Source: Candidatus Aadella gelida
GTDB lineage: Bacteria; Omnitrophota; Gorgyraeia; Tantalellales; Tantalellaceae
Assembly (NCBI GenBank): GCA_030765205.1
Contig: JAVCDB010000070.1
Span: forward strand, 1-43,242
Direction of reading: 5' to 3'
DNA: 43,242 nucleotides
Part shown: positions 1,858 to 33,962 of the stretch, piece by piece
Position numbering within the stretch: the stretch's first letter is position 1
How the letters are laid out: every line of letters begins with the position of its first letter
Translations under genes and position numbers: made by a program
The notes under the pieces: generated by a model
Databases searched by the model: none
What the model was told of the DNA's origin: nothing
Seen by the model: the letters and a program-made list of their open reading frames with translations, nothing else

Positions 1858-1913
1858 GGCCCTCTGACTTCTAACCTCTATTTTCTATCCTCTCTTGTCT
1901 TTCGTCCCTCATC
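1858..1913. repeat. 7-nt-periodic degenerate array (TC at fixed phase), overlapping the ricT 3' end
   Basis: TC at 1863, 1870, 1877, 1884, 1891, 1898, 1905, 1912: eight consecutive 7-nt steps. Confidence 0.8.
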
Positions 1914-2781: not shown

Positions 2782-2872
2782 ATCGTTAATTCGTGACTCG
2801 TGGCTCGTGATTCGTAAACAGTGAATAGTAAACTGTTGACTATTGACTATGGACAATTGACTATTGTCAAAT
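2782..2872. repeat. 7-nt-periodic degenerate array, 13 units
   Basis: ATCGTTA ATTCGTG ACTCGTG GCTCGTG ATTCGTA AACAGTG AATAGTA AACTGTT GACTATT GACTATG GACAATT GACTATT GTCAAAT; position 6 is T in 12 of 13 units. Confidence 0.85.
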
Positions 2873-17459: not shown

Positions 17460-17518
17460 ATTCTGGGGACATCCTTCGCCGTGGAATTACACCCCCACGG
17501 GAAGGGTGTCATCAGAAC
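17460..17518. repeat. MITE-like short element copy 2, supplies the 3' end of lolD
   Basis: Shares the 29-mer and ATTACACCCC...AAGGGTGTC core with 6711-6770; TTCTG...CAGAA ends. Confidence 0.75.
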
Positions 17519-18239
17519 CTGGCGCATTAAGCCCTAAACCTTCAACCTTATCCTCTCTATGTCTCCCCGACCTTCTCTCCAAGACCCCGTCTTTCATGAT
17601 ATATTCAACATGAAAAAAATCTTCTTTAACTTCCTGATGCGAGACCACAACCACACTCATACTTCTATCTTCGCTTATATTATGAAGCAGCTTATATATC
17701 TCCCCGCTTCTTTCAGAATCAAGATTCCCGGTAGGCTCGTCACAAAATAGTACTTCGGGATTATTTACAAGCGCTCTAGCTATAGCTGTCCTCTGCGCCT
17801 CTCCTCCCGATATTTCCGCGGGACGATGCAAAACACGTTTTTCCATGCCTACTTTATTTAAGATCTTATACGCATTTTCCCTTATTTCGGAAACTTTCTT
17901 CCCTCCTTTTATCCTGGCTGGAAGCATAACATTTTCCAGAACGTTCAGTTCCGGCAAAAGGTGATAAAACTGAAAAACAAACCCGAAATTCCTATTCCTT
18001 ATGCTGCTCCTTCTTTTATCTTTGAGTTTGTATATATCACTGCCTCTAAAAATAACTTCACCGGATGTAGGCTGCGTTAGCCCTCCAAGAAGATGAAGCA
18101 AAGTCGATTTTCCTGCCCCCGAGGGACCGTGAATATATATGCGCTCTCCAGCACTAATAAGAATGTCCGTCCCCTTGACCGCTTGAACAGTATTCCTGCC
18201 CCGCTTAAAAGTTTTATTTATGTTTTTAGCTTCCAGCAT
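17487..18239 (-). CDS. lolD: lipoprotein-releasing ABC transporter ATPase
   Basis: GPSGAGKSTLLHLLGGL, ISGGEAQRTAIARAL, LFCDEPTGNLD. Confidence 0.93.
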   Translation of the reverse strand: MLEAKNINKTFKRGRNTVQAVKGTDILISAGERIYIHGPSGAGKSTLLHLLGGLTQPTSGEVIFRGSDIYKLKDKRRSSIRNRNFGFVFQFYHLLPELNVLENVMLPARIKGGKKVSEIRENAYKILNKVGMEKRVLHRPAEISGGEAQRTAIARALVNNPEVLFCDEPTGNLDSERSGEIYKLLHNISEDRSMSVVVVSHQEVKEDFFHVEYIMKDGVLERRSGRHREDKVEGLGLNAPGSDDTLPVGV

Positions 18240-18251
18240 AATCTTCCCGTA

Positions 18252-18286
18252 ATTCGTGAATCGTGACTTGTAATTCGTGACTCGTA
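18252..18286. repeat. 7-nt-periodic array (5 units)
   Basis: ATTCGTG AATCGTG ACTTGTA ATTCGTG ACTCGTA, 3 bp from a REP palindrome. Confidence 0.75.
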
Positions 18287-18289
18287 ATG

Positions 18290-18315
18290 GTAGCCGGGGT
18301 TTAAACCCCGGCTAC
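18290..18315. repeat. solo copy of 26-bp REP palindrome
   Basis: GTAGCCGGGGTTTAAACCCCGGCTAC, identical core to 33378-33403 and 33930-33955. Confidence 0.85.
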
Positions 18316-18428
18316 TTCTATCTAAAAGTCGAAATGTCTGTTTCCCGTTACTCTACTATTCCCATATCAGTTCAACTTGACTCTAAAGAGCGAAGCGACT
18401 GATGACTTTCGTTGCACATCAGTCCTTC

Positions 18429-18505
18429 TATAGTCAATTGTCAAATAACGTCCCTCATCCTTCGTCTTTCTTCTTTCTGACCTCTAGCCTCTAGCTTCTC
18501 TCTAC
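18429..18505. repeat. 7-nt-periodic array (11 units) reaching the lolC/E stop codon
   Basis: TATAGTC AATTGTC AAATAAC GTCCCTC ATCCTTC GTCTTTC TTCTTTC TGACCTC TAGCCTC TAGCTTC TCTCTAC; C at position 7 in all units. Confidence 0.85.
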
Positions 18506-19714: not shown

Positions 19715-19896
19715 ATTCGGGACTCGTGGCTCGGGACTTGGGATTCGATCCCCAAGTCATGAACCACAGTCTACTCCATTCGTTATTCGTGATTCGTGGC
19801 TCGGGACTCGGGATTCGATCCCCGGGTCATGAACCACAGTCTACTCCATTCGTTATTCGTGACTCGGATCACGTGCCCCGAGTCACTAGCCACGAT
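19715..19896. repeat. 7-nt-periodic region with 70-bp tandem duplication and three consecutive hairpins
   Basis: 19731-19800 vs 19801-19870 differ at only 3 of the first 60 nt, all in the hairpin stem; third hairpin GTGACTCGG/CCGAGTCAC at 19859-19886. Confidence 0.85.
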
Positions 19897-24028: not shown

Positions 24029-24137
24029 CTCTGTCCATAGTCAATGGTCAATGGTCTCAGCCGAAGGCTGACCAGCCTATGGCTGGTATAGTCTTTTGTC
24101 TATTCTTCACCAAACACCATTCACTATTCACCGTCTC
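24029..24137. repeat. 7-nt-periodic array with two adjacent hairpins, overlapping the polX 3' end
   Basis: CCATAGTCAATGGTCAATGGTC; hairpins CAGCC-GAA-GGCTG (24058-24070) and CCAGCC-TAT-GGCTGG (24072-24086). Confidence 0.7.
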
Positions 24138-28647: not shown

Positions 28648-28674
28648 AGTTCAGAGAACTAAGTTCTCTGAACT
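28648..28674. repeat. 27-bp palindrome (13-bp arms)
   Basis: AGTTCAGAGAACT-A-AGTTCTCTGAACT, followed by a 7-nt-periodic TATGGAC CATTGAC TATTGAC tract to 28694. Confidence 0.85.
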
Positions 28675-28796
28675 ATGGACCATTGACTATTGACCGATGC
28701 CATTTGGCTGCTGTTTAATCTCCATCCTTTACCGAATACTATTAATCCTATACGAACATGCCAAAACCCCATATTTGATGAAAAACAAATAAAATG

Positions 28797-30408: not shown

Positions 30409-30777
30409 ATGGGTACGCGTAAAGATACCGGAATAACCGGGGAGCGCATGGCCGAGAAGTTTCTTCTTTCAAAAAAGTTTAAGGTTCTCGAGAAGAATTT
30501 CATCACTCCTTTCGGAGAGATAGACTTGGTTGCTCATGACGGAAACTTGTTGGTATTCGTGGAAGTAAGGACACGTATATCAGAGACTTTCGGCCATGCG
30601 CTGGAATCTATAGACACACACAAACAGCGTCATATAGTCAATAACTGCCGTTACTACATGGCGAGACGTAGTTTGCGAGAGAAATATTGGAGAATAGATG
30701 TTATAGGAATAAAGCTCAACAGATCTTTAGAGTTGGAGGTCTTGACACATATTAAGAACGCGATAGTGAAATATTAG
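30409..30777 (+). CDS. yraN: YraN family (UPF0102) endonuclease-like protein
   Basis: GERMAEKFLLSKKFKVLEKNF..GEIDLVAHDGNLLVFVEVRTR. Confidence 0.92.
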   Translation: MGTRKDTGITGERMAEKFLLSKKFKVLEKNFITPFGEIDLVAHDGNLLVFVEVRTRISETFGHALESIDTHKQRHIVNNCRYYMARRSLREKYWRIDVIGIKLNRSLELEVLTHIKNAIVKY

Positions 30778-30783
30778 ATTAGA

Positions 30784-30930
30784 GACCATTGACTATTGAC
30801 AGAGAAGGACTGCTGTGAGAAGAGAGTCAGAGAGTCAGGATTTACTGATGCCCTCTTTCTACCATTGCGAGAAACGAAGCGACGAAGCAATTTCAAAAAG
30901 TCAATTGTCAATCGTCAAGTGTCAATAGTC
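30784..30930. repeat. yraN-comM intergenic composite: 7-nt arrays in inverted orientation around an ATTGC..GCAAT element
   Basis: GACTATTGAC (30791-30800) inverted as GTCAATAGTC (30921-30930); ATTGCGAGAAACGAAGCGACGAAGCAAT between them. Confidence 0.75.
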
Positions 30931-30964
30931 CACAGATCACTTTTAACCCCTAAAAGGAGAAAAC

Positions 30965-32497
30965 ATGTTAGCCAAGGTATTATCAGGATGTGTGGTAGGC
31001 ATAAACGCCCACCCCATAGAAGTTGAGATCGATGTAAGCAGCGGACTTCCTTCGTTTTCTGTTGTTGGACTTCCCGACACTTCCATAAAAGAAAGCAGAG
31101 ATCGGATACGCTCGGCCATAAAAAATTCAGGTTTCGCTTTTCCTCATGGAAAAATAACCGTTAACCTCTCTCCCGCCGACCTTAAAAAAGAAGGGGCAAG
31201 CTTTGATATGCCTATAGCCTTGGGTATATTGAGTGCAGCTGGCGCAGTCGACCCAGAATCCCTCTTTGAAACAATATTCTGCGGTGAGCTATCACTTAAC
31301 GGTAAAATAAAACCATTCAGGGGAGCTTTTCCTATAGCTTTATCCTTAAAGACCCGTTGCAATTCTTTTATACTTCCCGAACGTAACGCCGTCGAAGTAT
31401 CAAGCTTAAACGACATTTCAGCCTATGGCGCAAAAACACTCACTGATATCGTATCACATCTAAAGGGAATCAAACCTCTCGAAAAAGCATCTCCAAAAGT
31501 ACCGGATCCAAAGTCCAAAATATCCCGTAACATACTTGATTTTAAGGACGTAAAAGGTCAGGAATACGTTAAACGGGGCCTGGAAGTTTCTGCCAGCGGA
31601 GGCCATAATATTATTTTATTAGGTCCTCCGGGGTCAGGAAAAAGCATGTTAGCAAAACGTCTTCCCGGAATAATGCCGCCCCTCACCTTAAAAGAATCCC
31701 TTGAAGTAACCAATGTTTACAGTATAGCCGGAGAAGCCTCCTGTACCTCTCTTATAAAAGATCGCCCGCTCAGATCTCCACATCATACCATATCCTATGC
31801 CGCAATGGCCGGAGGCGGCTCAAACCCTCTCCCCGGAGAGATAACTCTGGCACATAATGGTATCCTCTTTTTAGACGAATTCCCGGAATTTCGGCGTGAT
31901 GTCCTTGAAACATTGCGCCAACCTTTGGAATCCGGAGAAATTACAGTAACCAGGGTATCCCGTTCACTAAAGTTCCCGTCCCGTTTTATGCTAGTAGCAG
32001 CAATGAATCCGTGCCCATGCGGAAACTTTACCGATCCCAATAAAAATTGTAACTGCACCGCTTATCAAATACAACGTTACCTCTCAAAAGTATCAGGTCC
32101 TCTTCTCGATAGGATCGACATACATTTAGAAGTCCCTCGTCTAAATTATAACGATCTTTCAAGACAAAGAACCGGTGAACATTCGTCCGTTATTAAAGAT
32201 CGTGTTTTAAAGACGCGAGAAATACAAAAGATCCGTTTTGATAAAAAAAACTATATCACTTCATGTAATGCCTGTATGTCTTCCAAAGATGTCGAGGAGT
32301 ACTGCACACTTTCTTCCGAAGCGGAAGAACTGTTAAAAACAGCAGTACTTGAACTCGGAATAAGTGCAAGAGCCTATGATAAAATACTAAAAATATCACG
32401 CACTATAGCTGATATGGATGGATCTGATACTATACAGTCTCATCATCTATCCGAAGCGGTAGGATACAGATCCTTGGATAGGAATTTGTGGGTATAG
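30965..32497 (+). CDS. comM: YifB/ComM family Mg chelatase-like AAA+ ATPase
   Basis: FSVVGLPDTSIKESRDRIRSAIKNSGF, LGPPGSGKSMLAKRLPGIMPPL, RSPHHTISYAAMAGGG, AAMNPCPCG. Confidence 0.97.
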   Translation: MLAKVLSGCVVGINAHPIEVEIDVSSGLPSFSVVGLPDTSIKESRDRIRSAIKNSGFAFPHGKITVNLSPADLKKEGASFDMPIALGILSAAGAVDPESLFETIFCGELSLNGKIKPFRGAFPIALSLKTRCNSFILPERNAVEVSSLNDISAYGAKTLTDIVSHLKGIKPLEKASPKVPDPKSKISRNILDFKDVKGQEYVKRGLEVSASGGHNIILLGPPGSGKSMLAKRLPGIMPPLTLKESLEVTNVYSIAGEASCTSLIKDRPLRSPHHTISYAAMAGGGSNPLPGEITLAHNGILFLDEFPEFRRDVLETLRQPLESGEITVTRVSRSLKFPSRFMLVAAMNPCPCGNFTDPNKNCNCTAYQIQRYLSKVSGPLLDRIDIHLEVPRLNYNDLSRQRTGEHSSVIKDRVLKTREIQKIRFDKKNYITSCNACMSSKDVEEYCTLSSEAEELLKTAVLELGISARAYDKILKISRTIADMDGSDTIQSHHLSEAVGYRSLDRNLWV

Positions 32498-32538
32498 AGT
32501 AGAAAGTAGAAGACAGAAATTAGAGGATAGAAGGAAGT
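32497..32538. repeat. 7-nt-periodic purine-rich array at the comM stop codon
   Basis: GAGTAGA AAGTAGA AGACAGA AATTAGA GGATAGA AGGAAGT. Confidence 0.75.
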
Positions 32539-33359: not shown

Positions 33360-33405
33360 GAATAGTTATCCACAATAGTAGCCGGGGTTTAAACCCCGGC
33401 TACTA
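33360..33405. repeat. left REP flank of RAYT (46-bp direct repeat including palindrome)
   Basis: GAATAGTTATCCACAATAGTAGCCGGGGTTTAAACCCCGGCTACTA; 1 mismatch to 33912-33957. Confidence 0.9.
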
Positions 33406-33409
33406 AAAG

Positions 33410-33917
33410 ATGAAAATAAGGAAGGTAAAAATTATGAGTAAAGTAAAAAGATATTTTGAGGAAGGCTATCCTTACTTTATCACTACTAATACTGATAAAA
33501 AATTACCGATTTTTACTGATGAAAAAAACTGTAAAATCCTTCTTGTAGCCTTGGAATTCTTTACAATTAGTTCTGAACTACAAGATATTTGCGTATTGCC
33601 TAATGCCCACTCATCTTCATTTTATACTTCAAACTACAGGCGAATATGACCACTCACATATAATGAAAATGATAAAAGGTAATTTTGCAAGAAAATATAA
33701 TATGATACATTCAAGAGAAGGTAAAGTCTGGCAGGCTGGGTTTTATGACGAAGGGCTTAGAGATATGAATATGCTTCTACAAAAAATAGAGTATATTCAC
33801 AATAACCCGGTAAAATCAAAGATTGTATTATCGTCAGATCAATATCGTTTTTCAAGCTATGCTTTCTATCACAGTAAGGATTACAAGGGTATCCCGGAAA
33901 TCGACATATTTGAATAG
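33410..33917 (+). pseudogene. REP-associated tyrosine transposase (Y1/HUH), frameshifted
   Basis: Frame 1 YFEEGYPYFITTNTDKKLPIF..ALEFF, frame 2 LNYKIFAYCLMPTHLHFILQTTGEYDHSHIMKMIKGNFARKYN..VWQAGFYDEGLRD..YIHNNPVKSKIV; the HxH motif is in the second frame. Confidence 0.88.
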
Positions 33918-33962
33918 TTACCCACAATAGTAGCCGGGGTTTAAACCCCGGCTACTATTGTG
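33912..33962. repeat. right REP flank of RAYT, 40-bp perfect palindrome at 33923-33962
   Basis: CACAATAGTAGCCGGGGTTT/AAACCCCGGCTACTATTGTG. Confidence 0.9.

Follow-up and report, generated by a model that had tools for sequence, protein, structure and literature searches.

What makes short tandem arrays of 7-nt units (heptads) follow the direction of the gene whose stop codon they adjoin? The question is raised by three arrays in the window, by which we mean the whole stretch of DNA analysed here, 43,242 nucleotides long. It makes up a single 43-kb contig in the 1.59-Mb metagenome-assembled genome of an uncultured Omnitrophota bacterium, and the best matches of its ricT come from Candidatus Omnitrophota (79–80% identity). 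A sequence-only reading of the window had described the arrays as purine-rich in gene sense on both strands and had proposed either a function at the mRNA 3′ end or a strand-asymmetric generation.

Data and definitions

About 1.58 Mb of the genome was scanned in stretches, with 12 small contigs masked. Genes were called by a purpose-written, simple codon-score caller, in which stop positions are exact and start positions approximate. Hypotheses were formed on a discovery set of 1.08 Mb and replicated on 0.50 Mb that had been held out. Motif counts are numbers of spacers with the motif within 30 nt of a stop codon or near a start codon, sense:antisense relative to the gene. Families are designated by letters: A, TAGARNNTAGA; B, TAGGTNNTAGGT; C, AACAGTG; D, GACYATWGAC; E, ACGARTYACGA; F, TAGTTNNTAGTT.

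Heptad arrays in the window

All three arrays were found at the positions previously given for them, and the names of their host genes are backed by Pfam:

18429..18505, minus strand: heptad array adjoining the stop codon of the lolC/E-type permease gene (lolE), with a TAGAGGC block, ACGAAGGATGAGGG, then TTGACAATTGACTATAG; lag-7 match 0.63
1858..1913, minus strand: purine-rich heptad array across the ricT stop codon (1878-1880), its 5′ part coding for the RicT C-terminal tail; lag-7 match 0.63
32497..32538, plus strand: purine-rich heptad array directly 3′ of the comM stop codon; lag-7 match 0.60

At other lags from 3 to 13 the match fraction is 0.17-0.44. Read in gene sense, the purine content is 0.73 in the lolE array, 0.80 in the ricT array and 0.83 in the comM array. 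The stop codons lie at 18502-18504 (lolE, minus strand), 1878-1880 (ricT, minus strand) and 32495-32497 (comM, plus strand). The description of the arrays as post-stop heptads holds for lolE and comM, where they are outside the gene, and fails for about 33 nt of the ricT array: positions 1881-1913 are coding and yield a basic C-terminal tail (...GRKTREDRK*). Nor does a single unit make up the lolE array, whose heptads drift from TAGAGGC via ACGAAGGATGAGGG to TTGACTA. Six period-7 runs in the window score at least 10; 30 local shuffles give 0.13 on average and never more than 1, and periods other than 7 give 0-3 runs.

The window holds further elements of related kinds:

18416..18425, minus strand: asymmetric core GGACTGATGT after TTGACTA heptads, consensus AGAGAATGACCGATGYG; 35 sense to 3 antisense in co-oriented spacers
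18290..18315, unstranded: REP-like palindrome GTAGCCGGGGTTTAAACCCCGGCTAC in the lolE-lolD spacer; its GGGGTTTAAACCCC core occurs in 31 spacers of the first sample
18248..18285, minus strand: start-proximal heptad array ACGAGTCACGAATTACAAGTCACGATTCACGAATTACG just 5′ of the lolD-type ATPase gene (17487-18239); ACGARTY family, 22 sense to 0 antisense near starts
2791..2866, minus strand: heptad chain CAATAGT > CACTGTT > CACGAGT upstream of the ricT start, the strongest of the window (score 21.5)
19715..19866, minus strand: 70-bp tandem unit in 2.2 copies, of CACGAAT-type heptads (TRF score 269; period-7 run 19778-19817)
30776..30948, plus strand: near-complete D-core-D′ heptad element upstream of comM (nhmmer E=3.8e-17, model positions 9-175)
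24033..24056, minus strand: GACCATT heptads, then core TGACCGATAT
28666..28700, plus strand: GACCATTGACTATTGAC heptads and core in a divergent spacer

The chain at 2791..2866 is a right-hand element end in reverse-complement families, and the tandem unit at 19715..19866 sits between a lysyl/asparaginyl-type tRNA synthetase gene and lolE. At 33378-33955, two GTAGCCGGGGTTTAAACCCCGGCTAC palindromes flank the gene of a Y1 (IS200-like) transposase (33486-33803), which has a TAG inside. A gene between palindrome copies is the usual layout of REP-associated transposases.

Period 7 and array orientation across the genome

Spacers of the genome hold 236 period-7 runs, as compared to 2-32 for periods 5, 6 and 8-11. 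Strong enrichment is limited to period 7 and its multiples, and 89 of 99 runs are intergenic. Co-oriented spacers contain 70 arrays whose start lies no more than 10 nt from a stop codon; read with the gene, 63 of these are rich in purines and 4 in pyrimidines (24:2 on the held-out part). Eight motif families within 30 nt of stops occur in sense only, without a single antisense case, and this was repeated on held-out contigs. Specifically, the counts are 36:0 for A, 17:0 for B, 10:0 for C, 30:0 for D and 12:0 for F. The genome-wide tabulation thus clearly excludes random orientation, and it supports a link of orientation to transcription rather than to chance. The earlier observation that arrays follow the gene is correct, and stronger than first stated. 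In several spacers of the TAGGTTN type (L027, L067, L083) a GAGC string is found repeatedly after the stop codon, ahead of the first AGGT heptad.

Mirror arms and remaining polarity

Near start codons the stop-side families are found mainly as their reverse complements, with antisense:sense counts of 9:2 for B, 8:1 for C and 9:2 for D. Since reverse complements of the heptads precede the next start codon, most spacers are inverted repeats, and in a mirror-symmetric spacer the left arm necessarily reads in gene sense. Simpler symmetric versions are present in other spacers (TAGGTTN...NAACCTA, AACAGTG...CACTGTT, GTATAGN...NCTATAC). Arrays stand at either end of 32 spacers. There the pairing energy is −19.0 kcal/mol for cognate arms and −11.3 kcal/mol for swapped ones (0 of 5000 permutations); spacers lacking arrays show no such effect. 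When only arms of one family are compared, the cognate partner has no advantage over a swapped one (B, n=13; D, n=23). An RNA hairpin with heptad-by-heptad compensation is rejected on this ground. The two arms share family, not exact sequence, and the lack of a cognate gain within one family is expected for arms that turn over independently.

Symmetry does not account for everything. Family E occurs near starts in sense (22:0). The purine-rich TAGARNN block, read inward, lies at 36 gene 3′ ends vs 2 gene 5′ ends, and the core AGAGAATGACCGATGYG after GACYATW heptads is oriented 35:3 with the genes in co-oriented spacers. TAGARNN near stops and ACGARTY near starts are the blocks that are still polar, and only the purine-rich block and the core carry a polarity that symmetry does not explain. 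The inverted-repeat layout accounts for most of the orientation, and the suggested strand-asymmetric generation is at most a conjecture.

A dispersed modular element

By BLAST, 185 of 840 spacers fall in one cluster. Six long copies align across about 180 nt with 82-93% identity. An nhmmer profile finds 79 copies, oriented 58 sense to 10 antisense in co-oriented spacers, a sense bias that the palindromic D arms blur for partial matches. Read in gene sense, a complete copy runs from the stop codon through a TAGARNN block, a ACGAAGGATGAGGG block and GACYATW heptads (D) to the core AGAGAATGACCGATGYG. A variable middle follows, then reverse-complement D heptads, CACTGTT and CACGARTYACGA up to the start codon.

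We judge it more probable than not that the arrays are the ends of a family of dispersed intergenic elements made of degenerate 7-bp tandem units, which are copied, slip and are filtered by orientation. Such elements would spread by DNA copying into the tight spacers of co-directional genes. Slippage by 7 bp at a time may make their arms grow, shrink and drift, as the variation among arrays suggests. Selection, or the insertion process, would retain only insertions with the purine-rich, stop-triplet-rich end toward the 3′ end of the upstream gene. The gene-sense look after stops would then be mainly the left arm of an inverted element, to which the real extra polarity of the purine block and the core is added.

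A search for the agent with two protein families gave three Y1 transposase matches, one of them broken and none tied to heptads. The only reverse transcriptase match is likewise not tied to heptads: at locus L185 (genome G000, contig C106, 429-1086) the RVT_1 gene is interrupted by stop codons. Reverse transcriptase as the spreading agent is rejected, the sole match being a broken gene.

The same loci in relatives

Relatives were sampled through the loci that the searches returned. In most Omnitrophota relatives checked, the ricT-metG spacer is array-free and about 0-20 nt long, compared with about 300 nt here, where metG is likewise the gene 3′ of ricT. The lolE-lolD spacer is short and array-free in most relatives checked and 262 nt long here. 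In lolE and comM the C-terminus does not differ from that in relatives. Erosion of the proteins by the arrays is rejected for these two genes; the ricT array does encode a tail. In one relative (G005, locus L233) a degenerate 10-nt array, GTAATTGATN, occupies the post-stop position of lolE at which 7-nt arrays sit here.

The GACYATW family (D) is patchy, being present in 21 of 193 Omnitrophota genomes and mostly at low counts; backward control patterns of the motif are absent from nearly all of the 21. The same inward layout with other 7-mers is seen in other Omnitrophota genera. Locus L105 has TTCGTGA...TCACGAA after ricT and GTGCTGA...TCAGCAC elsewhere, and locus L246 has an AAATCAA...TTTGATT array. 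In a different phylum, an Oscillospiraceae metagenome-assembled genome (locus L169, positions 14-82) has AGAGTGA heptads and then TCTCCAC heptads, an inverted pair. It is doubtful, though conceivable, that several phyla share a process which builds inverted repeats from 7-bp steps between genes, with heptad classes of their own for 3′ ends (TAGARNN) and 5′ ends (ACGARTY), the unit varying by lineage while the step and the inward layout stay fixed. If this is true, a polymerase, recombinase or binding protein dedicated to 7-bp tracking would be implied.

Weighing the explanations

The sequence-only reading had suggested that the arrays act in the mRNA at gene 3′ ends, and they could do so as terminators, processing sites or stabilisers. 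The gene sense near stops without antisense cases, the concentration of TAGARNN at 3′ ends and the polarity of the core are as such a role would have them, but mirror arms also stand upstream of start codons. Array spacers fold stably on either strand without favouring the sense one (z −2.55 sense, −2.87 antisense, p 0.15), T-runs are rarer in them than in other spacers (0.86 vs 1.86 per kb), and Rfam gives no match in the window at gathering score, which together argues against terminators or sense-only RNA. An intrinsic terminator is rejected, with T-runs depleted and no folding bias to the sense strand. Moreover, arrays are missing after the same genes (lolE, ricT) in most relatives, and in Xanthomonas assembled transcripts span most such repeats (PMC4692102). 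We therefore find a function of the arrays in mRNA unlikely. Selection for stops in all three frames after the gene would have a simple basis: 7 is not a multiple of 3, so a heptad with TAG or TGA closes every frame. Of 83 near-stop arrays, 76 do hold a stop triplet in the inward strand, the two shifted frames meet a stop after a median of 9 nt (27-42 nt in other genes), and TAG stop codons are overrepresented in array genes (55 of 100 vs 296 of 1304, p 3e-11). However, 64 of the 83 arrays hold a stop triplet on the other strand too, start-side arrays, where no stop is required, have one read inward in 39 of 39 cases, and the GGGAATC heptads described earlier follow this orientation rule too, without any stop triplet (PMC4692102). 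As the explanation of the arrays, such selection is very improbable.

We give slightly less credence still to arrays that grow from the stop codon itself, by slippage that duplicates the 7-mer around TAG and makes gene sense automatic. For 88 arrays defined with the stop codon left out, that codon is the single best match in phase in 25, where chance predicts 1/7 (p 6e-4), but it agrees fully with the array consensus in only 12 of the 88, and most arrays, including those of lolE and comM, are out of phase with it. Such seeding does not account for mirror arms on the start side or for the long copies that spacers share. The stop codon as seed of all arrays is rejected in favour of a partial effect; all-frame stop triplets and in-phase stop codons are both real but partial. 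The replication fork, leading or lagging, could also set the orientation and make the link to transcription apparent, as nearly all genes are co-oriented. In the present genome (G000), genes on the 35 contigs of at least 15 kb are nearly always on one strand per contig, and gene direction tracks GC skew (r 0.99), so that the two are nearly fully confounded; the minority genes have an inverted third-position skew, which means that co-orientation with replication is extreme. The cases that separate the two explanations are small in number. In convergent spacers the motif is on the plus strand at the left stop and on the minus strand at the right stop, near-stop motifs of minority-strand genes are 6:0 in sense, and the core, scored by contig direction, is 3:4 where spacers are convergent or divergent. 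These small numbers indicate that arrays follow gene ends rather than replication, and replication strand as the cause is unlikely, the least probable of the explanations weighed here.

The 3′-end reading is thus mostly replaced by an inward-facing inverted element with added polarity. The orientation rule stems for the most part from the mirror symmetry of spacers and not from a signal in mRNA. Some caution follows: such arrays are not to be read as terminators or regulatory sites. Our counts supply a genome-wide tabulation for a little-studied orientation rule of bacterial 7-mer repeats, and why the step is 7 and why the arms face inward become testable questions.

Comparison with known heptanucleotide repeats

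In the open-access literature we found no report of such repeats in Omnitrophota. Cyanobacterial STRR heptanucleotide repeats are degenerate tandem heptads in intergenic DNA and resemble the present arrays in this respect; to our knowledge, no ordered multi-family element or orientation rule is known for them. Like REP and MITE-type elements, the heptad elements are short, palindromic, present in many copies between genes and without coding capacity. They have inverted arms (32 two-ended spacers), made of 7-bp tandem arrays instead of fixed terminal repeats, and no linked transposase, target duplication or precise insertion boundary was found.

TAACTGA direct repeats have been described in Beggiatoaceae, cyanobacteria and Bacteroidetes (Front Microbiol 2015, PMC4679880). 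In Maribeggiatoa they lie mostly immediately 5′ of start codons, forward, nearly invariant and almost never inverted (PMC4679880). Both kinds of repeat are intergenic, 7 nt long, patchy over distant lineages and gene-oriented, with stop triplets in all frames. The units of the present arrays are others and they drift, arrays stand on the stop side, and arms are inverted, which sets them apart from TAACTGA repeats.

The closest description concerns GGGAATC heptamers in Xanthomonas and GGGGA(T/C)T in Nostoc (PLoS One 2015, PMC4692102). These are on the sense strand within 50 bp of stop codons and on the antisense strand up to 50 bp 5′ of ORFs; most lie between aligned ORFs, some overlap stop codons, and each Xanthomonas genome has 70-75 inverted pairs (PMC4692102). 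The arrays studied here are likewise 7-nt tandem units, mostly intergenic (89 of 99) and between aligned ORFs, in sense after stops and antisense before starts (B, C and D; the exception is E, in sense near starts). Xanthomonas and Nostoc have one G-rich, quadruplex-forming unit per genome, whereas the present genome has many A/T-rich families. The units TAGARNN, TAGGTTN, GACYATW and ACGARTY have as a rule at most two successive G, and G-quadruplexes cannot explain the present arrays. Unlike in those two genera, the elements here are ordered composites with a conserved core and blocks specific to the type of end. The orientation rule is already published for one heptamer family (PMC4692102), and the present case is richer: new are the many A/T-rich families, the ordered composite element with its core, and blocks specific to the 3′ or the 5′ ends of genes.
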